Source: Owenia fusiformis
Taxonomy: Eukaryota > Annelida > Polychaeta > Sabellida > Oweniidae
Direction of reading: 5' to 3'
Length of the DNA: 64,000 nucleotides
Assembly (NCBI GenBank): GCA_903813345.2
Contig: CAIIXF020000004.1
Span: 31,251,986 to 31,315,985, forward strand
The position numbers and the translations under genes were made by a program. The notes under the pieces are model-generated. The model did no database searches. It had not been told where the DNA came from and worked only from the letters and a program-made list of their open reading frames with translations. The first letter of the stretch is position 1; every line of letters starts with the position of its first letter. This document shows, piece after piece, positions 443-57,900 of the stretch.

Positions 443-681
443 TTAAAACTCCATATTCCACCACTTATAGGCAAAAGGCTCCCGTCTTGTGTTTGTACCA
501 CAATGGATTTCTCCGAGTAGAACATGGTAACTTTCCCAGTCATTGATAAAGTGACAATGAACTCCGAGTGGTTCCAATTGGTCTCGCATGTAACTCTCAA
601 ACTGACAAATTCCTTGGATTTTCGGTCCGAATGGTTTCGGGATCCCCAAGTGGTTTCCAAGAACAAGCATGTTCACCATAC
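443..681 (-). CDS. PADI: PADI exon 14 (catalytic Cys, stop)
   Basis: 239 bp after [28 protein letters not shown] and [20 protein letters not shown] are near-identical to vertebrate PAD; the Cys of HCGTN is the nucleophile. Ends KWWNMEF and TAA; the stop lies in TTTTAAAGG, the same sequence that starts the units of the 3'-UTR minisatellite. Confidence 0.96.
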
Positions 682-3600
682 CTGGAAAAGAAAACGTGTA
701 AAGGGCTTTCATCGAAAAATAGGTGAGGCAAATTGGAATAGGTGAGGCGAATCAGAATAGGTGAGGCAAAACAGAATAGGTGAGGCAAAACAACCAACAA
801 TTACAGGTGAGATATGATCATGTTCAGTCAAAACAGACAAAATTTGGCATCAGCCTAGGAATATGGCATTTAATTGAAAATGTGGCATTTATTTGAGAAT
901 ATGGAATCATCCTCTAAGGAATATTTCTATTATTATTAAGAATATTTTATTCTTGTATGTTTAACATAATCATACATTATATTGATTTACAGGAAACGAC
1001 AGGGATTGGACAAGAGGATCCCCGCTCCAATATACCTAGGAGAATATTTTTGTTCAGTCAAGAAACAGTCAAATTCATTATGATAATTCGCTAATACCAA
1101 CCTGTATTAAGGCATCTGAGGAAAAGAAACTATAACAACCATGCCATTCTCATTGAAAACTTCTAAAATGTAGCTTGTAGAGAGGTTTTAGCAAAGAAAC
1201 TATATTTCTGAAGCAGAAAGGACTTGAAAATCAACCAAATCCACATGTCATCGAATAAATTAGTTATGTGATGTTCGCTTTTGGATATGGTGTACATATA
1301 TCCCTCGGTAAGATATCTTTATTACCCCCAGGATATATCCCATATCCATAACCTCCCATAACATAAACATCATTTATTTACCTGGGAATATAGCATCAGC
1401 CCCTGTGCCATCTACCGTATGGAATAGGGCAGGTACGTCTATGACATCTTCTTCAGTCAGTCCTAACTCTCTTTTCAATGTATCTCTGTTCCAGTCTAAA
1501 TATCTCTATTAAAGCAGAATTACAAATAAACTTCACATATTCTATAACATCTTCAGTCAGGCCTAACTCTCTTTTCAATGTATCTCTGTTCCAGTCAAGA
1601 TATCTCTAAAAGTAGAATTACAAATAAACTTCACATTTTCAATAACATCTTCAGTCAGGCCTAACTCTCTTTTCAATGTGTCCCTGTTCCAGTCAAGATA
1701 TCTCTAAAAGTAGAATTACAAATAAACTTCACATGTTCTATAACATCTTCAGTCAGGCCTAACTCTCTTTTCAATGTATCTCTGTTCCAGTCCAGATATC
1801 TCTAAAAGTAGAATTACAAATAAACTTCACATGTTCTATAACATCTTCTGTCAGGCCTAACTCTCTTTTCAATGTATCTCTGTTCCAGTCCAAATATCTC
1901 TAAAAGTAGAATTACAAATAAACTTCACATGTTCTATAACATCTTCAGTCAGGCCTAACTCTCTTTTCAATGTGTCCCTGTTCCAGTCTAAATATCTCTA
2001 AAAGTAGAATTACAAATAAACTTCACATGTTCTATAACATCTTCAGTCAGGCCTAACTCTCTTTTCAATGTATCTCTGTTCCAGTCCAGATATCTCTAAA
2101 AGTAGAATTACAAATAAACTTCACATGTTCTATAACATCTTCAGTCAGGCCTAACTCTCTTTTCAATGTATCTCTGTTCCAGTCAAGATATCTCTAAAAG
2201 TAGAATTACAAATAAACTTCACATATTCTATAACATCTTCAGTCAGGCCTAACTCTCTTTTCAATGTATCTCTGTTCCAGTCCAGATATCTCTAAAAGTA
2301 GAATTACAAATAAACTTCACATGTTCTATAACATCTTCAGTCAGGCCTAACTCTCTTTTCAATGTATCTCTGTTCCAGTCCAGATATCTCTAAAAGTAGA
2401 ATTACAAATAAACTTCACATTTTCAATAACATCTTCAGTCAGGCCTAACTCTCTTTTCAATGTATCTCTGTTCCAGTCCAAATATCTCTAAAAGTAGAAT
2501 TACAAATAAACTTCACATGTTCTATAACATCTTCAGTCAGGCCTAACTCTCTTTTCAATGTGTCCCTGTTCCAGTCCAGATATCTCTAAAAGTAGAATTA
2601 CAAATAAACTTCACATGTTCTATAACATCTTCAGTCAGGCCTAACTCTCTTTTCAATGTGTCCCTGTTCCAGTCCAGATATCTCTAAAAGGAGAATTACA
2701 AATAAACTTCATATATTCTATAACATCTTCTTCTGTCAGGCCTAACTCTCTTTTCAATGTATCTCTGTTCCAGTCCAAATATCTCTAAAAGTAGAATTAC
2801 AAATAAACTTCATATATTCTATAACATCTTCAGTCAGGCCTAACTCTCTTTTCAATGTATCCCTGTTCCAGTCCAGATATCTCTAAAAGGAGAATTACAA
2901 ATAAACTTCATATATTCTATAACATCTTCTTCTGTCAGGCCTAACTCTCTTTTCAATGTATCCCTGTTCCAGTCCAGATATCTCTAAAAGTAGAATTACA
3001 AATAAACTTCACATATTCTATAACATCTTCTTCAGTCAGTCCTAACTCTCTTTTCAATGTATCCCTGTTCCAGTCCAGATATCTCTAAAAGTAGAATTAC
3101 AAATAAACTTCATATATTCTATAACATGTTCTTCAGTCAGGCCTAACTCTCTTTTCAATGTATCTCTGTTCCAGTCCAAATATCTCTAAAAGTAGAATTA
3201 CAAATAAACTTCATATATTCTATAACATCTTCAGTCAGGCCTAACTCTCTTTTCAATGTATCTCTGTTCCAGTCCAAATATCTCTAAAAGTAGAATTACA
3301 AATAAACTTCATATATTCTATAACATCTTCTTCAGTCAGGCCTAACTCTCTTTTCAATGTATCTCTGTTCCAGTCCAAATATCTCTAAAAGCAGAATTAC
3401 AAATAAACTTCATATATTCTATAACATCTTCTTCAGTCAGGCCTAACTCTCTTTTCAATGTATCTCTGTTCCAGTCCAAATATCTCTAAAAGCAGAATTA
3501 CAAATAAACTTCATATATTCTATGACATCTTCTTCAGTCAGGCCTAACTCTCTTTTCAATGTATCTCTGTTCCAGTCCAAATATCTCTAAAAGTAGAATT

Positions 3601-6600
3601 ACAAATAAACTTCATATATTCTATAACATCTTCTTCTGTCAGGCCTAACTCTCTTTTCAATGTATCTCTGTTCCAGTCCAAATATCTCTAAAAGTAGAAT
3701 TACAAATAAACTTCATATATTCTATAACATCTTCTTCTGTCAGGCCTAACTCTCTTTTCAATGTATCTCTGTTCCAGTCCAAATATCTCTAAAAGTAGAA
3801 TTACAAATAAACTTCATATATTCTATAACATCTTCTTCTGTCAGGCCTAACTCTCTTTTCAATGTATCTCTGTTCCAGTCCAAATATCTCTAAAAGTAGA
3901 ATTACAAATAAACTTCATATATTCTATAACATCTTCTTCTGTCAGGCCTAACTCTCTTTTCAATGTATCCCTGTTCCAGTCCAAATATCTCTAAAAGTAG
4001 AATTACAAATAAACTTCATATATTCTATAACATCTTCTTCTGTCAGGCCTAACTCTCTTTTCAATGTATGTCTGTTCCAGTCCAAATATCTCTAAAAGTA
4101 GAATTACAAATAAACTTCATATATTCTATAACATCTTCAGTCAGGCCTAACTCTCTTTTCAATGTATCTCTGTTCCAGTCCAAATATCTCTATAAAAGCA
4201 GAATTACAAATAAACTTCATATATTCTATAACATCTTCAGTCAGGCCTAACTCTCTTTTCAATGTATCCCTGTTCCAGTCCAAATATCTCTAAAAGTAGA
4301 ATTACAAATAAACTTCACATATTCTATAACATCTTCTGTCAGGCCTAACTCTCTTTTCAATGTGTCCCTGTTCCAGTCTAAATATCTCTATAAAAGCAGA
4401 ATTACAAATAAACTTCACATATTCTATAACATCTCCAGTCAGGCCTAACTCTCTTTTCAATGTATCTCTGTTCCAGTCCAAATATCTCTAAAAGTAGAAT
4501 TACAAATAATCTTCATATATTCTATAACATCTTCTTCTGTCAGGCCTAACTCTCTTTTCAATGTATCTCTGTTCCAGTCCAAATATCTCTAAAAGTAGAA
4601 TTACAAATAAACTTCATATATTCTATAACATCTTCTTCAGTCAGGCCTAACTCTCTTTTCAATGTATCTCTGTTCCAGTCCAAATATCTCTAAAGGTAGA
4701 ATTACAAATAAACTTCATATATTCTATAACATCTTCTTCTGTCAGGCCTAACTCTCTTTTCAATGTATCCCTGTTCCAGTCCAAATATCTCTATAAAAGC
4801 AGAATTACAAATAAACTTCACATGTTCTATAACATCTCCAGTCAGGCCTAACTCTCTTTTCAATGTATCCCTGTTCCAGTCCAAATATCTCTATAAAAGC
4901 AGAATTACAAATAAACATCACATGTTCTATAACATCTTCGGTCAGGCCTAACTCTCTTTTCAATGTATCTCTGTTCCAGTCCAAATATCTCTAAAAGCAG
5001 AATTACAAATAAACTTCATATATTCTATAACATCTTCAGTCAGGCCTAACTCTCTTTTCAATGTATCCCTGTTCCAGTCCAAATATCTCTAAAAGTAGAA
5101 TTACAAATAAACTTCACATGTTCTATAACATCTTCAGTCAGGCCTAACTCTCTTTTCAATGTATCCCTGTTCCAGTCCAAATATCTCTATAAAAGCAGAA
5201 TTACAAATAAACTTCACATGTTCTATAACATCTCCAGTCAGGCCTAACTCTCTTTTCAATGTATCTCTGTTCCAGTCCAAATATCTCTATAAAAGCAGAA
5301 TTACAAATAAACTTCACATGTTCTATAACATCTCCAGTCAGGCCTAACTCTCTTTTCAATGTATCCCTGTTCCAGTCCAAATATCTCTATAAAAGCAGAA
5401 TTACAAATAAACTTCACATGTTCTATAACATCTCCAGTCAGGCCTAACTCTCTTTTCAATGTATCCCTGTTCCAGTCCAAATATCTCTATAAAAGCAGAA
5501 TTACAAATAAACTTCACATGTTCTATAACATCTCCAGTCAGGCCTAACTCTCTTTTCAATGTATCTCTGTTCCAGTCCAAATATCTCTAAAAGTAGAATT
5601 ACAAATAAACTTCACATGTTCTATAACATCTTCAGTCAGGCCTAACTCTCTTTTCAATGTATCCCTGTTCCAGTCCAAATATCTCTAAAAGCAGAATTAC
5701 AAATAAACTTCACATGTTCTATAACATCTCCAGTCAGGCCTAACTCTCTTTTCAATGTATCTCTGTTCCAGTCCAAATATCTCTAAAAGTAGAATTACAA
5801 ATAAACTTCACATGTTCTATAACATCTTCAGTCAGGCCTAACTCTCTTTTCAATGTATCCCTGTTCCAGTCCAAATATCTCTATAAAAGCAGAATTACAA
5901 ATAAACTTCACATGTTCTATAACATCTCCAGTCAGGCCTAACTCTCTTTTCAATGTATCTCTGTTCCAGTCCAAATATCTCTAAAAGTAGAATTACAAAT
6001 AAACTTCATATATTCTATAACATCTTCAGTCAGGCCTAACTCTCTTTTCAATGTATCCCTGTTCCAGTCCAGATATCTCTAAAAGTAGAATTACAAATAA
6101 ACTTCACATGTTCTATAACATCTCCAGTCAGGCCTAACTCTCTTTTCAATGTATCTCTGTTCCAGTCCAAATATCTCTAAAAGTAGAATTACAAATAAAC
6201 TTCATATATTCTATAACATCTTCTTCAGTCAGGCCTAACTCTCTTTTCAATGTATCCCTGTTCCAGTCCAGATATCTCTAAAAGTAGAATTACAAATAAA
6301 CTTCACATGTTCTATAACATCTTCAGTCAGGCCTAACTCTCTTTTCAATGTATCCCTGTTCCAGTCCAAATATCTCTAAAAGTAGAATTACAAATAAACT
6401 TCACATGTTCTATAACATTTTCAGTCAGGCCTAACTCTCTTTTCAATGTATCCCTGTTCCAGTCCAAATATCTCTATAAAAGCAGAATTACAAATAAACT
6501 TCACATGTTCTATAACATCTCCAGTCAGGCCTAACTCTCTTTTCAATGTATCTCTGTTCCAGTCCAAATATCTCTATAAAAGCAGAATTACAAATAAACT

Positions 6601-9600
6601 TCACATGTTCTATAACATCTCCAGTCAGGCCTAACTCTCTTTTCAATGTATCCCTGTTCCAGTCCAAATATCTCTATAAAAGCAGAATTACAAATAAACT
6701 TCACATGTTCTATAACATCTCCAGTCAGGCCTAACTCTCTTTTCAATGTATCCCTGTTCCAGTCCAAATATCTCTATAAAAGCAGAATTACAAATAAACT
6801 TCACATGTTCTATAACATCTCCAGTCAGGCCTAACTCTCTTTTCAATGTATCTCTGTTCCAGTCCAAATATCTCTAAAAGTAGAATTACAAATAAACTTC
6901 ACATGTTCTATAACATCTTCAGTCAGGCCTAACTCTCTTTTCAATGTATCCCTGTTCCAGTCCAAATATCTCTAAAAGCAGAATTACAAATAAACTTCAC
7001 ATGTTCTATAACATCTCCAGTCAGGCCTAACTCTCTTTTCAATGTATCTCTGTTCCAGTCCAAATATCTCTAAAAGTAGAATTACAAATAAACTTCACAT
7101 GTTCTATAACATCTTCAGTCAGGCCTAACTCTCTTTTCAATGTATCTCTGTTCCAGTCCAAATATCTCTAAAAGTAGAATTACAAATAAACTTCATATAT
7201 TCTATAACATCTTCAGTCAGGCCTAACTCTCTTTTCAATGTATCTCTGTTCCAGTCCAAATATCTCTAAAAGTGGAATTACAAATAAACTTCACATATTC
7301 TATAACATCTTCAGTCAGGCCTAACTCTCTTTTCAATGTATCCCTGTTCCAGTCCAAATATCTCTAAAAGTAGAATTACAAATAAACATCACATGTTCTA
7401 TAACATCTTCAGTCAGGCCTAACTCTCTTTTCAATGTATCCCTGTTCCAGTCCAAATATCTCTAAAAGTAGAATTACAAATAAACTTCACATATTCTATA
7501 ACATCTTCTGTCAGGCCTAACTCTCTTTTCAATGTATCTCTGTTCCAGTCCAAATATCTCTATAAAAGCAGAATTACAAATAAACTTCACATATTCTATA
7601 ACATCTTCAGTCAGGCCTAACTCTCTTTTCAATGTATCTCTGTTCCAGTCCAGATATCTCTAAAAGTAGAATTACAAATAAACATCACATGTTCTATAAC
7701 ATCTTCTGTCAGGCCTAACTCTCTTTTCAATGTATCTCTGTTCCAGTCCAAATATCTCTATAAAAGCAGAATTACAAATAAACTTCACATATTCTATAAC
7801 ATCTTCAGTCAGGCCTAACTCTCTTTTCAATGTATCTCTGTTCCAGTCCAAATATCTCTAAAAGTAGAATTACAAATAAACTTCATATATTCTATAACAT
7901 CTTCAGTCAGGCCTAACTCTCTTTCCAATGTATCCCTGTTCCAGTCCAGATATCACTAAAAGTAGAATTACAAATAAACTTCACATATTCTATAACATCT
8001 TCTGTCAGGCCTAACTCTCTTTTCAATGTATCTCTGTTCCAGTCCAAATATCTCTAAAAGTAGAATCATAAAATGTTCACATATGAATCAATCTCTTATT
8101 AACACATAACTGAATTAATTGATCACTTGGTATTTAACTGTGGTAATTATTCACTGGAAAAGAAATATCTCGTTAAATGGAGAAAATGTGTGAAAATGTG
8201 TGTTTTCATGAAAAATAAATCTTACAGACGATCCCTCCAGGTATTTTGTCTGTTTTATGGGCAAGTCTAGGAATCAAAAGAAGTCAAGAACAAGGCACTA
8301 AGATGCAAAACGCAACACCTGCCATTCATTACAGACACCAAACACCAAACATCATCCACAAAAAGTTAGTCTATAGTATTGTCACCACTATTGAAACCCC
8401 TGTTGTATATATCTAATGGAGATAATAATTAATATGTAGAATTTCCATACCTGTTTCGTTTTATTGTATTTGTCTAGGTCTGTATCTCTCAGTAGGTCTT
8501 TCACAGTCCTCTCGGCATTTACTAGACCATCTGCGTCACTTTTTTTACCTGCAATATTTTTTTTAGTCATGATTTACATATTTCTGTGAACATTTTTCAT
8601 ATACTTCAGCATCTTTTTTTTCATATTTTAGTCATGCTTTATATATTTTAGTCATGAGTCAAATATTTCAGTCTTGTGTCAAATACTTCAGTCATGTGTC
8701 AAATATTTCAGTCATGTGTCAAATACTTCAGTCACATGTCAAATATTTCAGTCATGTGTCAAATACTTCAGTCACATGTCAAATATTTCAGTCATGTGTC
8801 AAATATTTCTCAAGTGTTTCTCATACTTCACACATTTTAGTCATGTTTTTTATTTAGTCATATTTTACAGTCACATTTCACATATTTGAGACATTTTGAT
8901 ATTTGTATAACTGACTTTTTGAAATGAATTTGGTAGATATTTTAAATCATATGTTCCATAGGGCCCTTATATTAGTAAGATGTGCACTAAATATTAATAA
9001 AAACAAATAAAACTTACTTTATATGGCCAATGACTGAAATGCTTGTTCGGGTTTTATTACAACTAAATAAACAATTAAGATTTCAAATATTTAAAGATGG
9101 GTATAAAGTTCAACTATTATGGGAACAGGTGACAAATGAAAAACGGCATACCTTCAAACAATACTAGTTCACCGTGTCCTTCTCGGTTCAACTTCTTAAG
9201 AATCGAATAACAGCAGTCGGGACTTGCCATGAGTAGCTTGAAACTCTGCAATAATAGTATTTGGTCTTTAGTCTTTTTAATTGCCACTATTGTTGAAAGA
9301 AATTTGGCAATCAGCTGACTGTGTATATCTATGTTATTATTAGAAATAAATCGATAACATGAAAAAAAAAAGTTTTTGGATCTTTCAAAATGTTTTGTAC
9401 GAATATATCATCCACCAAACAAACTATAATTAAAAGAATTATTTTCCAATCAGTCTGCCCCCCACCCCTGGCTACGGGCCTGAATTTTGTTCCAGTTTGG
9501 AGGATAGGTGCCACAGTGCTCTCTTACTACTCTCTTACACTGGTTTCATTAATAAAGGTCCTTGACTTAACATCCTTCAGTTGCCATGGTTACCATGTTG

Positions 9601-12600
9601 ACCCTTTGGTCCATATCATTTATACAGTAAAACTGGGTTTCAAACTGTTTTCCTCATTTTGGCATATTATAATTGGGATTTACGGAAATATTTCTGTGGA
9701 GTCAAGAGGGGATCTCAATATAAATATATAAAAATAAAGAAAGGATGCACAGACAAAGGTTCATCTTTGGATATTTTCTCCACTTTATTGAGTATGACTG
9801 CCTTTTTTCATTGATATTATCATACCTTCTTGTCATTGGTTGGAACGAAGGTCATGAACTCATCAATATGGCCTACAGTCAGCCAATCAGAAAACAGTTC
9901 TACAAGAGGCTGAACTTTCTGGGCTGACAGAAAATTCCTGATCACTTTTAGCATCCTTCTCTCATTGAACGCCCTATAAATCATTATAGAGAAATGGTTT
10001 TATCATACCGTTCAATGAATGTAATGACATAAAACAGCTATTCAGTATATAGATGAAATATATGGATGTTATTTCCTGGACAGGAATTGAATATGGGTTT
10101 TATAGGGATAATATGATATTTCCATAGGTATTGGATGGACCAATGGAATATTATTGACCAGAGCCACCATTCTAAATGTGTCTTTTAACCCAACCTGGAA
10201 TTTTTAGATTTTAAAACTGACACCCCACTTGGTAAAAACTAGCTCGGGGCCTGATGTCTTACCCTGGTAAAGTTCCTCCAATCAAAATCTTGCCAAATGG
10301 GAAACTGACCCCATTTACTTTAACTGGTGGACTAACTTCAAGGTTCCCGAATGAGTCGAGTGAATTAGGCTCTTCTAAATAAGTCTCTCTAGTGACGTAA
10401 CCAAAGTCTTTGCCCTACAAAGAAAGCAATCAGAATACAGTAAAATCTGTATACGATACTGTAATCTCGTATATGAACACCTCTCAATGTGAACACTATT
10501 TTGGTTCCATGCTCTAATCTGCGAAAGATTAAGCATTCGAACATGACTGTATTCACGCCTTCTATAAACTGTAAATGAAGTCAATGCTTCAGCTGGGTTA
10601 TATTCGAGATCAATAACACAGTTAATACGTGTAATGTGTGACGTCATAACGGTGGGTCGTAGTAATGGCGGACCATGATGAATATTCGAAACAATTTGGT
10701 GAGTTTTCATGTTCGAATCGTAATATAGACCTCAGAGCAGGGTTACTAGTTTCGAATAACACCCCGCTGGTCTCGGCACAAAGGCTTTCGAACCCCTCAC
10801 TCCCTTCGGTCGTTCGGGGTACAGAAAACGTTTGTGCCAAGACCATCGGGGTGTTATTCGAAACTAGAAACCCTGCTCTTTGGTCTATATTTCTTAATTG
10901 TTTAACTCCTTTCTGCTGAAGATAATCCTGAAAAACATGAGAAGATTGAATTTGAGTCAGAATTGTCCTCTGACTCTGATGATGAAAAAGCTACCCAAAG
11001 ATTTTTGTTCATAAAATTGTTTATTGATCGATTATAGACGGAAAAAAAAGTGTTAATTCTACTGGACAAAAAATGCTCCCGGGGCAAGTTAGGGGGGGGG
11101 GGGGGGCGTGGCAGCTGACAATGGCTGGAAATTCAAAAAGTCGTAAAAACTCGTAAATAAGCGAAAAGGAGTTAAATAGCCATAAAATAAGAAAACCTGC
11201 AAATCTGAAATCCTTAAGGCAAATGGATTTGGCAGGTTTTACTGCATGAAGTTTTGCATCAGGAATGTAGTTGACAAATCTAAATTGTACAGAAATTTAA
11301 GAAAGATACCTCATTTCCACTATAGCTAGAAATTAATTTAATAAAGAATATTTAGTCCACTACACATACCAGTAGAGAAAAGATTGGGTAGTTTGTCAAT
11401 CCACGATCTCTAGGAGAGTCTAGTACAACTGGCATATACTTGTGTGGGGCTTCACTGTATCCAAACTCTATCTCATCCTAAAAGACATAAAATATCATGG
11501 TAGTCACGGTTTGAAATGCAAAATAGAGTGGAAAAGAGTGGAATTAGCAAGAAATAAACAAAACAGGCATGTAGTTAACACTCTAAATTGTATAGAAATG
11601 CAAGAAAATCAGACACTTCATTCAAATTTTAGAGAGAAATGAGTGGAATTAGCAAGGAATAAAGTAAACAGGCATGTACTAGTTAACACTCTAAATTGTA
11701 TAGAAATGCAAGAAAATCAGGCAGTTCATTCAAATTTTAAAGAGATATCCATTAAAATAAGCATGAGCAGACAGCCATTTTAACACTGAGCTGAAGTCGA
11801 TGAATTACCATGGTGATCACTATTTTCAAAAGGAAGGACTCATTACTTACCTGCATCCAACGGTCTCCTCGGTTGTGGCCTGGTTTAACTACCGTAAGGT
11901 TCACCCCTACTTCTTTCGTTAGCTCTCTCAGATTTTCAACAAAATTACGACTTTTCTGTGATCTCATTTCACAAACAAAAACCTCTTTGGGTTTGAGATT
12001 ATTTGGAGTCATTATCCAGGGACTGACTCGGAATGTTACGGTGTCTTTAAAGATGGGCAACTGGACGTCATCCTCGACCTGGGGAAAATAAAGTTATGAC
12101 AATATGTATATCTCCTTAACCCTGATTGGTTCCTTATACAGTAAATAAGTTACTTTATTCACAATTTGAACACTTTTGGCTGGTTCCAGTAACGTTTGTA
12201 TACTCGTTTCCCACTTTTCTATCCGAAAAACAAACAAATCATCTGATTGGTGCACGTTAAATCCAGCGCACAATCAGATGATTTGTTCGTTTTACTCCAG
12301 GATCTCATTGGTCAGACTCCCTTTAAACCATAGTTAATGGCCCTTAATTGACTAATGGAATTGACTGCTCAGCTTCTATTTACCTTTTACATAAGAATTA
12401 GCATAATGTAGGCTGGATAATATGTTATCTCATTCATCAGAATCTTCAATCTATGATGTGACGTTTGGATTAGACAGCTTTCCATATTCACTTACTTGAA
12501 AGAGAGACAGGTGAATTGGGACAATGCCATCAAAATCATAGTCTGGGTATTGTATTCCTTCTACTGCAAACCTAACTTGACCATCTCTTAGAAGATTTAA

Positions 12601-15600
12601 CTTCTGAAATGATATCTCAACCTGAAAGCAGAACAAGAATGTGTTAATGCAATAATGTTGTAATACAGTAATGTTGTAATACAGTAATGTTGTGATAATA
12701 TAATAATGTACATACTAATGCCTGGGTCACATTTGCTCCGATTCATTGGACGGTGCCCGGCCGATTGAGTATTCTGTTCAAAACTGAATACACTTGTGAA
12801 CAGGATACTCACACGCCGGCCGATGAATCGGAGCAAATGTGACCCAGGCATTAGAATATTGTATGTCTGAACACTCTGTCCCATTTCCTTATATGCCATA
12901 GCTTACCAGTAGTATTGTTAAACAAGGTATTTATATGCAAAACGTCACCACCTGCCATATGTTACAGATGCATGATACAGGTGACATGAAAACTTTAATA
13001 TCTGAACACCTCTTTGGCTGGTTCCAGTAGCATTTGTATAAGACAGGTTTTTCTGTAGTTTACCTGTTTGCGTTTTTTGCCAATGACTTGTCTCTTTGAA
13101 TCCCAGAATGGAGTTCCTTCTAAACTGTATATGCCAACCTTTGTAGATGTCTCAACGCTAGTGTGCAGTCGGAGTCTGAAATGAAAAACCTCTCAATGTG
13201 AACACTTAAGAATGGAGTTCCTTCTAAGCTGTATACGCCAACCTTAGTAGAAGTCTCAATGCTAGTGTGCAGTCGGAGTCTGAAATGAAGAACCTCTTAA
13301 TGTGAACACTTAAGAATGAAGTTCCTTCTAAGCTGTATATGCCAACCTTAGTAGAAGTCTCAATGCTAGTGTGCAGTCTGAGTCTGAAATGAAAAACCTC
13401 TCAATGTGAACACTTAAGAATGGAATGGAGTTCCTTCTAAGCTGTATACGCCAACCTTAGTAGAAGTCTCAATGCTAGTGTGCAGTCGGAGTCTGAAATG
13501 AAAAATCTCTCAATGTGAACACTTAAGAATGGAGTTCCTTCTAAGCTGTATACGCCAACCTTAGTAGAAGTCTCAATGCTAGTGTGCAGTCGGAGTCTGA
13601 AATGAAAAACCTCTCAATGTGAACACTTAAGAATGGAGTTCCTTCTAAGCTGTATATGCCAACCTTAGTAGAAGTCTCAATGCTAGTGTGCAGTTGGAGT
13701 CTGAAATGAAAAACCTCTCAATGTGAACACTTCCCCATAATGGAGTTCCTTCTAAACTGTATATGCCAACCTTAGTAGAAGTCTCAATGCTAGTGAGCAG
13801 TCGAAGTCTGAAATGAAAAACCTCTCAATGTGAACACTTTATTGGTCTCCCACTAACTTACATATTAAGAAAATCTTGAAATGTGAATACTTGCTAATCT
13901 CAACACTTTTGGCCAATCCAAGTGGTGTTCAGATTAGAGAAGTTTTGCATGATTTGAGTACACCATTTTATGATATTTCAGTTACAACCTTGTGTGAAGA
14001 CAGACGCTAAAAAGATATTTTTTTTGATACAATGTGTGGTTGATTGCCACTCTATTATCACAGTTGGATTGACTTAGTTATCATTGTATTTGATTTTCTT
14101 TGAGATAACGGATATACAACAGATAATATTCAAGATATGACTGGCTGAAATCATTTGCTTTGTCAAAACAGGCTCTTTGTCAAAGATTCCCGACCTTTAA
14201 TTTGAGAGAAACTATGAAAGAACAAAGTCACCCGGAAACAGGCTTTAAGGTGCTATCTGATGTGGAGTTAGGGGTTGCCAAAGTTTTGGAGGGGAGTGTA
14301 CCTATAGTCTCTTGGTAGACCACTTTCCTCTAGATTTGGGCCTCTAAAGTTTATAACGAGCATGCTCATGTCAAGTAAATCATCCTTTCCATTTCTCCAA
14401 AGGTCTTCTGTATCTCTCTCACCATCGGCTCGTACACTTTCATTGTCACAATTCACCAGAATGATCGCTCCCTGGCCATTTGGTCCCCAAGTCCAGCGAC
14501 TCTGAAAAGAAAATTCATTCACCATTACAATTTACCAGAATGATCACTCCCTACTCGGCCTCAAGTCCAGCTGCTTTGGAAATAGAACAGTTACAATTCA
14601 CAGGAGTGATCGCTCCCAATAAAGTTAAAATATACAAGAATGATCGCTCCCTAGCTGATTGGTCACTTAGTCCAGCTGCTTTGGAAAGAAGATTCATAGA
14701 AGGTCAATTTCATAAAACAATGTCATTTTGCCTAACTATATTTGATTTTAGTAAGCATCCTGGAGCAATTCTGAATGGACAATGGACATAAAGATATTTG
14801 TTTACTTCAATGATTAAATAATTCCTGAATATTAGATCCTCATATCAACTGATCAGAAATTAATCTTACTCGAAGTCACAGTTTACCAGAATTATCTTCT
14901 CTTGATATTTACTGATTGAGTTTAAATTCATCGTTGATAAATGTAATATGATACAATAATACGAGGGTTGTCCCAGAAGAAATGCACTATATGCTCTAAC
15001 TTTCTTTAATATTCTTCAATTACTTCTGGGACAACCCTCGTATGTATTGCAATACAAAACAATGAAATGCATAGGTTTAATACTGTGACAGCAGTCAAAA
15101 TAACGTTGTATTCAACAAAACTTTTTACCTTGTCAACTTCAAATGTCTCCTCAACTGAACCATTTCTGTTAATATCTGCATCCAATGATAATGCAATAGA
15201 TGTCAGTAGAAGGAGACTTTCTCCCGCCACTTCCCCATTGGCTGCCTTGAACTCAAACTTGACCTGGAAACAAAAAAGTAGAATAGTCTTATGGATCGTG
15301 TTCAATTATCAAGAGTTGTGGAGTAACAAAGCTAGTTTCATTAGGGGAGGGGGTAAATGATGGTTTCATTAGTGAATAGGGTTGAATTTCGGAACATCCC
15401 AGTGAAAGACAAATGTTGACGTTTCTTACAAGGGGGGCAAACAAAAGTCTAATCAAAGTAGTGTTGAAAAGCTAATCATAGCTCCAAGGAATGGAGTGTA
15501 AACAATTATAATTTTGAAGAAAAAAAATGTTAACATAAAAGTGAAAAAGTTTATCGTTGGATTTCATCATATTGGGGTTCGAGTGGAAAAACTATCTTTA

Positions 15601-18600
15601 ATTTTACACTTTGGAGGAAATCCCTAAGCCTAAACTTTATTTCTGCATGAAAACATGTTTTCAAGAAGATAAGATAGTTATAAAGTTACCTGGGAATCAT
15701 TCCACATGTTGCTGACGGTTGCTATAGAGATGTAAACAACTGCATCACGAGAGAACATGCTGCCACTCATCCCGCTACCAGGAATTTCATTACTGTCAGA
15801 TTCCCCTTTGTTAAACCTTAGAGTAACATTGTCTGTCTTTTCAATGGAGAATGAAGTTGAGTGACTAGGAGCAAGGCTGAAATATATTAATATACAGAAT
15901 TTCATTACTATCAGATTCCCCTTTGTTAAACCTTAGAGTAACATTGTCTGTCTTTTCAATGGAGAATAAAGTTGAGTGACTCGGAGCAAGGCTGAAATAT
16001 ATAAGGGTTATGTACTGGGAGGTTTTGGATATGGGGTTTATCCAGAGGGAGATATGCATATCTACCTGAAGGACCGTAGGGACCAAAGGTAGATGTGCAT
16101 ATCTCACAAGGGATGAACCCAATATCCAAACCGACCGTACATAACTGCTTTATCCTATACCAAGTAGAGTTTTCAGGGGCATATGGGCATTTCAATAATA
16201 CAAGGTGTAAAAATGAACAAATCATTCATATGCAAAGTCATTTTATTGCATTTCCACTACTTACTGGAAGCGGGAAGATATGCACTGAAGCGGGAAGATA
16301 TGCATCGAAGCAGGAGATATGGCGGGAGATATGGAGGTTCTGGATATGGAAACCTCAAAATCAGGATACGGGATATATCTTACCAACTTATCTCCCTAAA
16401 ACTCTACTTGGCATAGGATAAATTAATATACAGAATTTCATATGTAATATCGTACTCATTATCTCATGGTGGAATAAAAGAAAAACATGCAGTTTTTCAT
16501 GATTCTGAGCATTTCCCTTTAAATGAATAAGTAATTCCTTCAAGGGTTTTAAAGATATCAATTATGGGTGACCAATATTAAGCTGAAAACAATGGATTGC
16601 ATGAGTTTTTCATATGGGAAATAAGGGTTTCCAATTTATCGAAGAGGACAATTCAGCAAAAGCATGTGGCAGTGATATCCCCAAGCAAGAGGGCACACCA
16701 CCCACCTGAGATTTTGAAAATAGGCTTGCACCCACCTTAAACCATTTCCCCCACTTGAAAATGAGAAAAATTGGCATATTTTGACCAATTTTGGTCTGAA
16801 ATGTGAAAATGAGAATTCTGCACCCGCTGGAGAAAAAATCCTGGGGATATCACTGTGTGGGTGGGTTGTTTGCATCTACCCTGTCTCAAAACCGAAATTA
16901 TCTAATCATCTCTATGGGTGCTTTTCCTGAAGGTAATGCATTGGCCTAACATGCACCTGTTAAAATCCCCAGAAAATAGCCCAAATCCAACATATCACTG
17001 TCTGAAATCTTTTGTGATACTTTCCGTCCTCCTTTGTCCATGTCACTGTTGAACCACCCCCTTTCTTAAGCCCCCTCTACAAAAGCTGACTACGGGCATG
17101 GCATACATAACTTTATGACACTTTCTTTAGAAAAAACACCAACCTGTGCTGGGTTCCACAGCCCCTAAAATCTTTAGAAGACATTAAAGCTCTGTATAAC
17201 TTGCTTGCCCATAGCCAGATTTTACCAAGGGGGAGCTTTCACCAAAGAGGGCCTTTTGACAGTTTTGGATAAAAAATCATGAAAAAGTGCTCAGAATGGT
17301 GAAAAACTTCATGATTTTGAAAAAAATTCTGGTAAGGGGAAGCTTCCGCTCCCTGATTTGGGCCTGTCTTGTGTAATGTGTATCTATTAGTGGTGTCAAT
17401 TAACCGCTTGAGCATTAACCGGTTAACCGGGGGTTTTTACCGGTTAAAGTCGGTTAACCGGCGGGAAATTTGAACTGATAATTTCAAATGAAATCTTCAT
17501 CTTCGATCTTGAAAGTTGAAACAAATTGGAAAAATGATATATGTTTATTTTTTACGTTCGTCAAGCTTTACTCTATTCTATGTAAGTAAGCGCGGGAAAG
17601 CAATGTGGCAGGGATTAAACGGGGGATTAAAGTTGCTGATTGGATGTTTGTAAGGAATTATCGGACCTATCACATGTATGAGTAGCTCACATGAAACTGA
17701 CGATTGAAAAACAAACAGATTAAAATGCAAAGTAAGCGCGGGAAAGCAATGTGGCAGGGATTAAAGTTGCTGATTGGATGTTTGTAAGGAGTTATAGGAC
17801 TTATGACATGTATGAGTAGCTTACGTGAAACTGACACCATAAAACCAAACGGATTAGCATGCAAAATAAGCGCGGGAAATCACAGAATTATACACGGTCA
17901 ACTAACCGCCCATAAAAACACAGACCGGTCAAGGCATTATCGGCGGTTAACCGGTTAACCGGTTAATACTTGACACCTCTAGTATCTATATAAAGAAGGA
18001 GGCAAAGTAGAATGGCACCACTCAGTTTTATAATTTTACCACTCTGTTTTAATAGCAGCACCACTCACTCGTTTGATCAATATGTGAGCCTTAGATAATT
18101 ACATAACATTCCTCTTTCTGTTAACTCAGAATTATGGTAACCAGACAGGAGAAAGTCAGAATCCAAAAGGGCAAGATAGATAAAAGAGAAATAAGAGCTC
18201 TTTAACATTGGGTTAAAACATTCATGTCATTCTGAACTATCGTGAAACAGTCTATTAGCAAGGCTTTAACAAATGCAAATGATATTACCATAGATACAAG
18301 AAGACTTCATTTTTAGCATTTTCAAAAAAAATTTACAATACGTAGACTCTTAACTTACCTATAAAGCTTCACAGCCAACTCAGTTCCTAAGACGATAATT
18401 TCCTCTGATTTTTCTCCTAGTCTCATCGCCACAGTTCTAATTCTCTTACCGACAGGCTTAACATCGCTCTCTCCTAAGCCTGACCCCCAGGGGTCTACTG
18501 GTGTTGAGCCTCTCATATTGTTATCGATATTGTTATGACCACGGCCGGAGTCCTCTACGTCTTCTGAAGTGTCAGTGTTGTTTGGTTTTGGTTCAATCAC

Positions 18601-18630
18601 CTCCTTCTCCTTGTCAAATATAATGCCCAT
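443..18630 (-). CDS. PADI: Peptidylarginine deiminase (PADI), complete 14-exon gene
   Basis: Converts peptidyl arginine to citrulline; known animal PADs are calcium-activated and act in cytoplasm and nucleus. I joined 14 exons by GT-AG sites and phase; they total 2223 nt (740 codons plus stop) with no break. Catalytic residues of human PAD4 (D350, H471, D473, C645) match D421, H542, D544 and C722 here: exon 8 begins DEIEFGY after WMQ, exon 10 has VGHIDEF, exon 14 has EIHCGTN. The D-to-H spacing (121 residues) equals that in PAD4. The substrate-binding SPRxRGL motif is at residues 441-447, and the protein ends KWWNMEF. Exon 1 adds an acidic, Asn-rich N-terminal stretch of about 60 residues compared with vertebrate PADs of about 663. 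The start ATG at 18630 follows an in-frame TGA ten codons upstream counting back to position 18643 or so; an upstream non-coding or coding exon cannot be excluded. Exons 2, 4, 5 and 13 have partial tandem copies in the intron before them. Confidence 0.93.
693..810. repeat. About 18-bp minisatellite beside PADI exon 14
   Basis: Four or five units of AATAGGTGAGGCAAA in the intron just upstream (gene sense) of exon 14. Confidence 0.75.
1382..1505 (-). CDS. PADI: PADI exon 13 (source of the large array)
   Basis: 124 bp. The true exon has AATAG at the acceptor and CCCAG|GTAAAT at the donor. It encodes [35 protein letters not shown] and ADAIFP, matching human CIDWNRELLKRELGL and DIIDIPQLF. Only the first 69-72 nt recur in the array at 1506-8070; the part coding for VPALFHTV onward occurs once. 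Confidence 0.95.
1506..8070 (-). repeat. About 66-unit array made of PADI exon 13 plus its 3' splice site
   Basis: Head-to-tail units of 98, 100 or 101 bp. In gene sense each has about 30 bp of intron end (TTTATTTGTAATTCTACTTTTAG) shortened here to TTTGTAATTCTACTTTTAG, then exon-13 sequence coding for [14 protein letters not shown] and GLTEDVIEH, where homology to the true exon ends. Length differences are of two kinds: plus or minus one GAA codon in the exon part, and two bases (TA) in the intron part. Units are over 90 percent alike by eye. The array fills nearly the whole intron between exons 12 and 13, so about 66 acceptor sites lie before the true one. There is no spacer diversity, so this is not a CRISPR. 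Confidence 0.95.
8451..8548 (-). CDS. PADI: PADI exon 12
   Basis: 98 bp after ATTGCAG. Encodes [18 protein letters not shown] to NKTKQ, equivalent to the KKKKQQKIKNILSNKTL region. Ends in phase 0 at GTATGG. The following intron contains the exon-13-derived array. Confidence 0.88.
8630..8880. repeat. About 20-bp minisatellite
   Basis: About ten units of CAGTCATGTGTCAAATATTT with drift, in PADI intron 11. The open reading frames across it are repeat translations and not genes. Confidence 0.85.
9152..9245 (-). CDS. PADI: PADI exon 11
   Basis: 94 bp after [24 protein letters not shown] and [11 protein letters not shown] match human GFRLLLASPRSCYKLF and EGHGEALLFEG. Donor GTATGC. Confidence 0.95.
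9826..9973 (-). CDS. PADI: PADI exon 10 (catalytic His and Asp)
   Basis: 148 bp after TTATAG. Encodes [18 protein letters not shown] then [13 protein letters not shown]; the His and Asp of GHIDEF match H471 and D473 of PAD4. Donor GTATGA. Confidence 0.95.
10263..10414 (-). CDS. PADI: PADI exon 9
   Basis: 152 bp. [10 protein letters not shown] and [17 protein letters not shown] are nearly identical to vertebrate PAD ([26 protein letters not shown]). Ends in GG before GTAAGA, phase 2. Confidence 0.95.
10733..10881. mobile_element. Palindromic MITE-like hairpin
   Basis: Arms GAGCAGGGTTACTAGTTTCG and CGAAACTAGAAACCCTGCTC flank a short centre, with near-perfect pairing over about 60 bp. Lies in PADI intron 8. 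Confidence 0.7.
11370..11477 (-). CDS. PADI: PADI exon 8 (catalytic Asp, substrate arginines)
   Basis: 108 bp, phase 0-0. First codon is the catalytic Asp ([18 protein letters not shown]). LDSPRDRGL carries the two arginines that in PAD4 hold the substrate backbone (R372 and R374). Confidence 0.95.
11500..11755. repeat. Direct duplication of about 112 bp
   Basis: Two copies of a segment with GTGGAATTAGCAAG and CTAAATTGTATAGAAATGCA. Reverse-complement relatives occur at about 49190-49300 and 49720-49890 in the collagen intron, so this is a dispersed family. Confidence 0.7.
11851..12078 (-). CDS. PADI: PADI exon 7 (start of catalytic domain)
   Basis: 228 bp, phase 0-0, TTCCCCAG to GATGCAG|GTAAGT. 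Encodes [14 protein letters not shown], then [12 protein letters not shown], the signature at the start of the PAD catalytic domain, and ends GDRWMQ, immediately before the catalytic Asp in exon 8. Confidence 0.95.
12225..12300. mobile_element. Short inverted repeat hairpin
   Basis: Arms AACAAACAAATCATCTGATTG and its complement (CAATCAGATGATTTGTTCG) separated by about 25 bp, in PADI intron 6. Confidence 0.55.
12496..12621 (-). CDS. PADI: PADI exon 6
   Basis: 126 bp, phase 0-0, after TTTCAG and before GTAAGT. Encodes [14 protein letters not shown] to VPIHLSLFQ, matching human FYVEALAFPDTDFPGLITLTISLLD. Confidence 0.9.
12719..12853. mobile_element. 135-bp palindromic MITE
   Basis: Ends CTAATGCCTGGGTCACATTT and AAATGTGACCCAGGCATTAG are perfect complements, and the arms go on through GCTCCGATTCAT. 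A partial relative starts at about 44275. Lies in PADI intron 5. Confidence 0.75.
13064..13175 (-). CDS. PADI: PADI exon 5
   Basis: 112 bp, after TTTCAG, ending AAACAG|GTAAAC. Encodes [16 protein letters not shown] to IGKKRKQ, matching human LVLHVARSEMDKVRVF. The 5' two thirds of this exon with its acceptor is repeated six more times just upstream (13176-13838). Confidence 0.88.
13176..13838 (-). repeat. Six tandem partial copies of PADI exon 5 with its acceptor
   Basis: Units of about 104 bp (one of 109) run directly upstream of exon 5. In gene sense each has TTTTTCATTTCAG then ACTCCGACTGCACACTAGC to GGAACTCCATTC, after which exon homology stops and AAGTGTTCACATTGAGAGG follows. That tail is a piece of a dispersed family also seen near 33763 and 51120. 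No good donor is present in a unit. Confidence 0.92.
14302..14501 (-). CDS. PADI: PADI exon 4
   Basis: 200 bp. Encodes [19 protein letters not shown], the strongly conserved PAD middle-domain motif (human TWTWGPCGQGAILLVNCD), then the acidic loop and [11 protein letters not shown]. The acceptor is TTTTCAG and the donor ATAG|GTACAC. Degenerate copies of its 5' end lie upstream at 14518-14905. Confidence 0.92.
14518..14905 (-). repeat. Degenerate partial copies of PADI exon 4
   Basis: Copies of the 5' part of exon 4 (CAGCTGGACTTG, GAGTGATCATTCTGGTAAATT) lie at about 14518-14590, 14588-14630, 14625-14705 and, weakly, 14872-14905. They are clearly older than the exon 13 and exon 5 copies. Confidence 0.8.
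14960..15042. mobile_element. Mariner-like MITE, about 80 bp
   Basis: Terminal inverted repeats TACGAGGGTTGTCCCAGAAG and CTTCTGGGACAACCCTCGTA with TA at both ends, as in Tc1/mariner elements. Lies in PADI intron 3. Confidence 0.75.
15129..15263 (-). CDS. PADI: PADI exon 3
   Basis: 135 bp, phase 0-0, between TTTCCAG and GACAAG|GTAAAA. Encodes [11 protein letters not shown] to TFEVDK, including the strand [14 protein letters not shown] that corresponds to human PAD4 GVEISLCADITRTG. Confidence 0.9.
15690..15876 (-). CDS. PADI: PADI exon 2
   Basis: Follows TTTCAG and ends CCCAG|GTAACT, phase 0. Encodes [18 protein letters not shown] to SNMWNDSQ, matching the TSFSI and following strands of the PAD N-terminal domain. 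A partial second copy with its own acceptor lies just upstream at about 15891-16008. Confidence 0.85.
15891..16008 (-). repeat. Partial duplicate of PADI exon 2 with its acceptor
   Basis: About 119-bp tandem copy covering intron end, TTTCAG acceptor and the first 110 or so bases of exon 2 ([16 protein letters not shown]), nearly identical to the true exon. Homology stops inside the exon and no donor follows. Confidence 0.9.
16145..16422. mobile_element. MITE-like element with inverted ends
   Basis: Ends TATCCTATACCAAGTAGAGTT and AACTCTACTTGGCATAGGATA (20 bases each in effect) pair; the interior is AT-rich with short GGAAGATATGCA repeats. Confidence 0.6.
17392..17977. mobile_element. Element with GGTGTCAA ends, hAT-like
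   Basis: Begins GGTGTCAATTAACCG and ends CGGTTAATACTTGACACC; the sub-ends are rich in AACCGGTTAACCGG. The interior holds a direct duplication of about 140 bp (GTAAGCGCGGGAAAGCAATG). No transposase frame. Target duplication unclear, so the superfamily is a guess. Confidence 0.6.
18359..18630 (-). CDS. PADI: PADI exon 1 (start codon, N-terminal extension)
   Basis: Begins [10 protein letters not shown] at 18630 and ends KLY plus two bases of the next codon before a GTAAGT donor. The first 60 or so residues are Asp/Asn/Glu-rich and look disordered. The later part ([22 protein letters not shown]) aligns with the first strand of the PAD N-terminal domain (human VLGT, TSFSI region). An in-frame TGA lies a few codons upstream of the ATG. 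A weak CAG just before the ATG could instead be an acceptor. Confidence 0.75.
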
Positions 18631-54900: not shown

Positions 54901-57900
54901 TTAACCCAATCCCTTGACATTAAACCCTTAAGATGTTTCACCCTCTGAACATTTCACACCCTATACATTTCAAAACCTATGCATTTCACCCCTAAACAAT
55001 TCAAACTACTGTATACAGTACCTGGTAACCCTGGCAACCCATCAGCTCCTTTCTCTCCATCCAATCCAGCAATTCCTGGCAACCCATCTCTTCCAGAATC
55101 TCCAGCTCTGCCTGGTATTCCAGGGAAACCATCTCTGCCATTATCTCCCTAGCCACAAAAATATAAAACAGTTATCTATTTATGTGGCATCCCAGGGAAA
55201 CCACCTTGGCCATTATCTCCCAAGCACAAAAATATAAAACTGTTACTTATTCATTTATGTCGGGAAACTATCTCTATGTCATCTCAATACACAGGGAGTT
55301 TATCTTTCCCGAGAAATAAAGATATTATTCAAACAATACCAAAGGAATATAATGTCACTCACTGCTGGACCTGGGCGACCTCTGACCCCATCAAAAGCTG
55401 TCTCCCCTCGCTCTCCTTTCAAACCTGGGGACCCCTGGGCACCTGGTCGTCCTACTGACCCTGGGCGACCATCGTCTCCTTTGCCACCATCAACACCTGT
55501 ACAGGACATGGAAATATATTATATTCTGTTTTCAATCCCTTTAAATTAACTATTATATTAATTCATTTGTAGAGAAAAAATAAATCAATAAACTGGCATA
55601 ATGCACCAGTTCACCATGAATTTTAAAATTTTGCTCAGAGGTGATGTTGCCTTGAATATTGTTATATATACCTGGGAATCCCATCATGCCCATAGCGCCC
55701 TTTAAGCCCTCACGGCCTGGTCGTCCCTGGAAGCCATTTCTGCCCTGTTCGCCTGAAGGACCTACAGGATACAAAAACATTGATCAATGACAGGTTAAAG
55801 ATATGGAATTTATCCAGATGGTCCTACAGGATACAAAAACATTGATTAATGACAGGTTAACAATATGGGATTTATCCAGATGGTCATATAGGATACAAGT
55901 ACATTGATCAATGACAGGTGAAAGATATGGGATTTATCCAGATGGTCCTATAGGATACAAGTACATTTATTTTCATTTCTATTATATACACTTATAACTA
56001 TAAGGCGCCTTTAATACTAAAAAAATGTTATTGAGAATATATTGATTTTTTCAAATTAAACATGATCTTCCATTTAAAATAAGTGTACAAAAATATAATT
56101 GCATTATCAGAAGTAACATAATGACTGTGCCCGCTCAAAATACAATCCTACACTGTACATTACATTAATATCAACATTTGACTGTCAAAATAGAATCATA
56201 CCTCTCTGTCCAGGGAGTCCGGGTCCGGGGTCCCCACGTGGACCCTGTGGTCCAGGCTCACCATCTAATCCATTCAAACCAGGGAAGCCAGGTAGACCTG
56301 CAATGACAAAAAAATAATGGTTTTCATTCATGTGTCATTTCATTCATGTGTCATTTCATTCATGTGTCATTTATATGGTGCAAATGACCTATTATTAAGC
56401 ATGTGGATATGAAATAAAATACTAGAAAATCTAGCAGGTGGGTGTCACATAAATCTTATATACTGATTACCATATTTTCTCTCATAAGTGCAGTAGAACC
56501 TGTCTAAGTGGAACACCATTGGTACCTCTAAAAGTGTTCTACTTGGGAGGTGTTCACTAGCAGAGGTGTGCACAATAATCGCATAATAATTTAAAATACC
56601 ATGCACATACCTGGTAATCCATCTTCTCCTCTGGGGCCTTTACCCCCAAATCTCGCGGGTTCTCCTTTCTGTCCCGGCCGCCCAGGAATACCATCATCTC
56701 CATCGGGACCCAGACGACCACTGTTTCCAGGGAATCCTGGGAAGCCTGGTTCTCCTCTATCGCCAGAGTTGCCTAAATATGATAATAATTTGATCATATG
56801 ATAATGGTGCTTGAATAGTGGGGAAGGGGGTCTAAGACATTGTTTCTTTTCTTTTCATCTTAGATCATGATTATTAAAGCAAAATCAGGAATATAGAATA
56901 AAAAATGAAAATAATATCATTATAATTCCAATAAATCTAAAAAACTGTCTAAAAAACTGTCAAGAGAAAAATTTAGCTTTTTGGCTAATAATGCTAAATG
57001 AGCCTAGCTGAAACTATAACTAACGTGAAAATTGAGAAAAAAAAACATATATAAAAAATGCACCTTTTGGTCCTGGAATTCCGGAATCTCCGTCAGGTCC
57101 AAGTGAGCCAGCCAATCCGGGGAGGCCATCATTGCCTCTCTCACCCTTGAAACCTAAATAATATATACAATGACATTAGCCCATAATATATAAAATTAGC
57201 CCATAATATATAAAATTGGCCCCTAATGTATAAGATTAACCCATTATATATAGATTAGCCCATAAGATAACCCATAATATATAACAGAATGTAGCAACTC
57301 ATCAAGTACATGTGTAGAATTTAGTTACAAACTACCAAGAAGACGAAGCTCTCTTTTAAGAAGTGAAGTTTAACGAATGCATTTAAAAGAAAGTACTTTG
57401 CTGTAGTTTAACACACCTGCAAGTCCATCTCTGCCTCTTGGACCTGGTTTTCCTGGCAAACCATCTTGACCTGGTTTCCCTGGCTGCCCTGGTTCTCCTG
57501 CACGACCATCCAGGCCCTTCCTTCCAGGAAGCCCTGGGAACCCATCTCTGCCTGAATCGCCAACACCTCCCTTATCACCAGACAACCCTAGAATATGCAA
57601 GAAGCAAGTAAAGTAAGTCATTTGAGGTTTAATAAGCAAATCTCTTAAAACGTTTCAAGGCTACATACAATCTCCTCTATTGTCAAAATTCTAACTCATG
57701 AGATTTTCGCTTCGCAATCGTTGAATGTTAAATCATAATATATCATGCATAGTATGCAGTACATGTACAATACAGTATAGCACAGTACAGTATAGTACAG
57801 TGCACTACAGTACAGTATAGAAATAAACATGATTGAAAAATGTGTACTGAGGTATCAAAAGTGTCTTACCATCTTTGCCATCAAATCCAGGTTGTCCAGG

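Follow-up and report, generated by a model that had tools for sequence, protein, structure and literature searches.

The 64,000-nucleotide stretch of Owenia fusiformis DNA analyzed here (the window; GenBank assembly GCA_903813345.2, contig CAIIXF020000004.1, positions 31,251,986 to 31,315,985) carries a complete PADI gene on its minus strand, with a collagen IV-like gene beside it, and one intron of PADI holds a tandem array built from the start of the following exon together with its acceptor. The PADI gene spans 443..18630 in window coordinates and comprises 14 exons encoding 740 amino acids. Its model was built from matches to human PADs, a tblastn search with human PAD2, and the matching of splice sites, so that its introns are GT-AG by construction. 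The reading frame is intact over all 14 exons, exon 13 included, and the predicted protein contains the Pfam domains PAD_N (E = 3.2e-12), PAD_M (E = 7.2e-39), and PAD (E = 2e-155), all above the cut-off. Invertebrate PADI genes on record include those of Priapulus, Saccoglossus, and Branchiostoma (PMC8826395). The introns of the gene are longer than its internal exons (median 603 nt versus 130.5 nt), its G+C content at third codon positions is 0.406, a low value that is not in keeping with amphioxus, and that of the whole window is 0.356.

Intron 12, which runs for 6945 nt between exon 12 (8451..8548) and the 124-nt exon 13 (1382..1505), holds the array at 1506..8066. Like all PADI features described below, it lies on the minus strand. 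Tandem Repeats Finder (TRF) reports a single array at 1450-8066 with a period of 98, 66.7 copies, and 95% matches, and cutting at a conserved exon motif along the minus strand yields 66 units in the array, in addition to the true exon start. Each unit combines a 33–35-nt piece of the intron end with an AG acceptor and the initial 65 nt of exon 13 (68 nt in the longest units). The units measure 98 bp (n = 34), 100 bp (n = 16), or 101 bp (n = 16), lengths that reflect differences of 3 nt within the exonic portion and of 2 nt within the intronic portion. The initial annotation, which had described about 66 tandem copies in a PADI intron and derived them from the intron 12/exon 13 junction, is thus borne out on both counts, and its exon number is correct for the 14-exon model; the exon-derived length of 69–72 nt that it gave becomes 65 nt, or 68 nt in the 101-bp units, when counted on the unit consensus.

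The acceptor AG is kept in every one of the 66 units, and a branch-like YTNAY motif is found at −45 to −15 in 65 of them. When all 14 PADI exons were searched by BLAST against the gene with its exons masked (E <= 0.05), exon 13 gave 66 matches, all upstream and on the same strand, with no downstream or antisense copy. The array acceptors are followed by A in 65 of 66 units and by T in one, and then by GATAT. Recursive (ratchet) splicing, which is defined by an AG/GT junction at the acceptor, was considered and rejected, as this junction occurs at 0 of the 66 array acceptors.

The units differ from one another in a way that bears the marks of minisatellite growth by unequal exchange. Their mean identity is 0.944, falling from 0.960 for neighbors to 0.932 at a distance of 30 units; 43 distinct sequences are present among the 66, and a block of six units occurs twice (units 11-16 are the same as units 24-29). 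This decay of identity with distance, the many distinct units, and the duplicated block are as unequal exchange predicts. Three bases of the true exon 13 are shared by only two, one, and one of the 66 units, which places the true exon outside the homogenization. Variable alignment columns make up 16 of 69 in the exonic part (pi 0.033) and 9 of 35 in the intronic part (pi 0.050), a comparison made by count, with no significance test. The two parts thus vary alike, so that nothing clearly points to constraint on the copies as coding sequence, and a coding function of the array copies, for which variation in the exonic part is not clearly lowered, was set aside as unsupported.

Splice-site strength was scored with an acceptor matrix trained on 23 acceptors in the window, 12 from PADI and 11 from the collagen IV-like gene; 11 of 16 collagen acceptors and 9 of 16 collagen donors were chosen by eye for matrix training. 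The true exon 13 acceptor scores 2.40, and the array acceptors have a median of 3.43 and a range of 0.60 to 6.00, with 64 of 66 equalling or exceeding the true site. Across six matrix variants with other training sets and widths, this number lies between 63 and 66. The initial claim that the transcript must pass about 66 acceptors as good as the true one therefore stands as far as number and relative score go, but all these sites are equally weak: the leave-one-out median of the training acceptors, 7.7, is reached by none of the 66. Of 464 other intronic AGs, a set that takes in the exon 2, 4, and 5 copies described below, 15.5% reach the score of the true exon 13 site; hence this site is weak, and the matrix alone cannot single it out. 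Joining any array acceptor to the true exon 13 donor produces a premature stop (66 of 66 cases). The best GT donor within the array scores 2.07 and is present in 28 units; the real donors (n = 22) have a median of 10.13, the weakest of them scoring 2.02.

The exon 13 array is not the only one of its kind in the gene. The same exon search gave 77 matches in total, each upstream of its own exon and on the same strand: 66 for exon 13, six for exon 5, four for exon 4, and one for exon 2. The initial annotation, which had picked out the exon 13 array, missed the same build before the other three exons. A second array with a unit of ~104 bp (13105..13839; found by TRF and BLAST) adds six extra copies of the acceptor and the first 70–74 nt of exon 5 (13064..13175), and a 115-bp duplication (15782..16002; TRF and BLAST) adds one extra acceptor with the first 95 nt of exon 2 (15690..15876), 96.8% identical. 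Upstream of exon 4 (14302..14501), BLAST finds four decayed, partial copies of the exon start (14527..14896), two of which retain an AG at the junction; the farthest and weakest of them has E = 0.041. The matches of exons 2 and 5 begin at the first exon base, as do the exon 13 copies by unit cutting. Copy identity is 97% for exon 2, 92–93% for exon 5, and 80–86% for exon 4, which indicates that these arrays differ in age or in homogenization.

The decoy acceptors in these smaller sets differ in strength relative to their true sites. The six before exon 5 score 8.4–10.9 versus 10.5 for the true site, the one before exon 2 scores 7.9 versus 7.8, and the two AG-retaining copies before exon 4 score 2.2 and 3.8 versus 10.7. 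A stop results when the six exon 5 decoys, the exon 2 decoy, or both AG-bearing exon 4 copies are joined to their true donors. The junction of the exon 2 copies (15877-15905) also holds a stretch that matches intron 1 near 16440 (24 nt, 95.8%), which may reflect template switching during the duplication. A motif resembling GTGTTCA turns up repeatedly in introns, and also where the exon 5 array has its left edge (10490, 12200, 13030, 13820, and 51120-51250; recognized by eye and in TRF consensus sequences), and is possibly the end of a dispersed repeat. Two further PADI arrays, at 11531-11745 and 17623-17879, are purely intronic.

Similar duplications probably affect two exons of the collagen IV-like gene, and these also were missed by the initial annotation. 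The C4 domains of this gene lie at 42.6–43.7 kb and its Gly-X-Y exons extend from 44.9 to 63.1 kb; 16 exons were located heuristically by the Gly-X-Y pattern, which falls short of a full gene model. On the minus strand, a 62-bp array of 3.3 copies (55761..55967) includes the acceptor at 55761, with two upstream copies found by BLAST and a third by sequence, each carrying ~10–12 nt of exon-like sequence; one of the three has no AG. A 71-bp duplication (55113..55254; BLAST and sequence) covers the acceptor and start of the exon that begins at 55148, and its upstream copy likewise has no AG. The loss of AG from some collagen copies looks as if decoys were being silenced. Elsewhere in the window, a 60-bp array of 5.5 copies (58766-59093) ends 6 nt short of the collagen exon starting at 58759, and an 84-bp coding tandem repeat at 37522-38003 encodes C2H2 zinc fingers.

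We consider it very probable that the exon 13 array is a mirage minisatellite, a term taken from the amphioxus repeats discussed below, which was seeded by tandem duplication, grew by unequal exchange, and is tolerated through use of the exon-proximal acceptor. All 66 units span an exon–intron boundary in a gene with an intact frame, the genuine exon 13 (1382-1505) is preserved beside them within the open 740-aa frame, and tandem turnover has left out the copy at the boundary. A tandem duplication would have copied the intron 12/exon 13 junction, including the AG with ~33 nt of the intron before it and ~68 nt of the exon after it, and unequal exchange together with local homogenization would have expanded it to 66 units. 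Exon 13 would have been kept whole beside its own donor, with the spliceosome recognizing the last acceptor and this donor across the exon, and the 66 upstream acceptors, without strong donors, would be passed over and leave with the excised intron. Splicing to an array acceptor would bring in an early stop, and nonsense-mediated decay would presumably destroy the message. On this view the array would be largely neutral, and any cost would be small and would depend on its length.

The argument for tolerance runs through the donors. Because the array contains no strong donor, the true exon 13 is the only well-formed exon in this region, and exon definition would be expected to favour the acceptor nearest the donor, as the amphioxus and human CBS 844ins68 cases suggest. 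Exon definition is expected where introns are longer than exons, as are the medians of PADI. The intact state of exon 13 beside its donor would thus explain why the array is tolerated.

Several points weigh against this account. The true exon 13 acceptor ranks below 22 of the 23 training acceptors in the leave-one-out comparison, and so weak a site makes a strict choice harder. The nearest decoy, 100 nt upstream, outscores it (3.43 versus 2.40) and would give an exon of 224 nt, well inside the range of exon definition; the nearest decoys, at least 100 nt upstream, are likely to be serious competitors, with low-level mis-splicing as the likely consequence. The best array GT does not fall below the weakest real donor. 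The choice of the exon-proximal acceptor is itself one that we infer from genomic sequence, and inspection of the break points, by eye only, showed no long microhomology, which leaves the first duplication unexplained.

Other readings share parts of this evidence. Since premature stops follow from all 73 AG-intact decoys before exons 2, 5, and 13 (1, 6, and 66, respectively), and the six exon 5 decoys rival their true site in strength, the arrays could be regulated decoys: some transcripts would use array acceptors, acquire early stops, and be degraded, with array length tuning PADI output. We regard this as improbable, given that both decoy use and selection on length would have to be supposed, that the variation among units resembles neutral minisatellite turnover, and that published mirages are reported not to disturb regular splicing (PMC3087553). 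The units might instead act as in-frame mini-exons, as a GTGAAG or GTGATG in 43 of 66 units, if it served as donor, would close an exon of 69 nt (42 units) or 72 nt (one unit) that would add 23–24 residues per included unit; these lengths are multiples of three, and all 43 pieces are open in frame. The GTs concerned, however, score 2.07 at best (in 28 units) and below zero in some others, against a floor of 2.02 for real donors, and 23 units have no such GT. Moreover, only ~29 nt separate such a GT from the next acceptor, less than an ordinary intron requires, so that only nonadjacent units could be joined, and we find this reading scarcely credible. Misassembly that inflated the copy number is also very unlikely: tandem arrays are difficult to assemble, but misassembly collapses them more often than it inflates them, and the 43 distinct units, the decay of similarity with distance, and the other, smaller PADI arrays built in the same way all speak against inflation.

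A separate question is whether the arrays include acceptors by chance. That they are ordinary minisatellites which happened to take in acceptors, with no preference, would be compatible with the mirage minisatellite explanation, and the two purely intronic PADI arrays are in line with it. So is the comparison of PADI splice sites, in which acceptors with local spanning copies outnumber such donors, but not significantly (4 of 13 acceptors versus 0 of 13 donors; Fisher p = 0.096). On the other side, three of the five PADI arrays with a period of at least 50 bp span an acceptor, whereas placing one unit per array at random in the collapsed gene yields 0.59 such arrays on average, with P(>=3) = 0.0135, or 0.017 if wholly exonic placements are excluded, in what is a small sample from one gene. 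Over all 29 acceptors and 29 donors, collagen included, a spanning BLAST match (E <= 1e-3, same strand, within 7 kb) occurs at six acceptors and three donors. The three donor sites (45888, 45488, and 44859) were set aside, their matches lying 400–1406 nt away and not in tandem, and were judged to reflect Gly-X-Y coding similarity at doubtful donors; the resulting sign test of 6:0 for acceptors versus donors (p = 0.031) depends on this judged removal. We think mere coincidence of placement unlikely. The bolder proposal, that acceptors are preferred seeds for tandem duplication in this genome and that array length governs how much full-length PADI is made, through 73 intact decoys in a single gene that all lead to a stop, is a long shot.

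The array offers a natural experiment in splice-site choice, with one exon facing 66 near-identical rival acceptors over 6.5 kb and exon 5 adding a case of six competitors that score about equal to the true site. RNA from PADI would show directly which acceptor prevails: the nearest, the strongest, or the one transcribed first. Having arrays of several ages together in PADI is also relevant to how introns move or originate and to whether acceptors attract tandem duplication.

The initial annotation knew of no described gene with this arrangement. It has in fact been named and described in several amphioxus genes, and human CBS 844ins68 shares its build (PMC3087553, PMC3902484, PMC2630376); the comparisons that follow draw on parts of these sources. 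In the amphioxus globin gene BflGb6, the 3′ end of an intron is tandemly duplicated along with the 5′ part of exon 2, and such repeats were termed mirages (PMC3087553); similar ones are reported for PGBD5, Adh, and troponin C of the lancelet (PMC3902484). The units measure 150–160 bp in BflGb6, 60 and 108 bp in PGBD5, and 10–72 bp in Adh3, with local homogenization and lengths that differ between haplotypes (PMC3087553, PMC3902484), and the data suggest that regular splicing is left undisturbed (PMC3087553). Like the mirages of BflGb6/BflGb9, Adh3, PGBD5, and troponin C, the PADI array is a tandem duplication of an intron–exon boundary. Unlike them, it has 66 units, compared with three and six in two BflGb6 haplotypes and up to seven in PGBD5 (Adh3 copy numbers lie outside this comparison), and its copies are of acceptors only, whereas either exon end can be duplicated in amphioxus. 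What is new is this copy number, 66 versus at most seven in the consulted parts of the BflGb6 and PGBD5 accounts, and the presence of several arrays in one gene; the animal group is perhaps also new for mirages. Among the papers listed in a literature search, whose coverage makes this only a weak indication of absence, no PADI mirage and no array near 66 units appeared. Introns can be moved or created when splice sites are duplicated internally (model in PMC3087553; PMC2891723), but in contrast to such intron gain or sliding, the PADI reading frame is unchanged and a new intron or exon is not shown.

Two human systems bracket the PADI array. CBS 844ins68 likewise duplicates an intron–exon junction, and the more distal of its two junction copies is strongly favoured, giving mostly normal message (PMC2630376, PMC1334203); unlike the PADI array, it has two copies only and is a polymorphism rather than an expanded array. 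The 31-bp variable number tandem repeat of CBS (c.1444_1467+7, 16–21 units; PMC2630376) is, like the PADI array, a many-copy minisatellite laid over an exon–intron junction. It differs in its 31-bp unit and in lying on the donor side. Each of its units carries a donor, where each PADI unit carries an acceptor.
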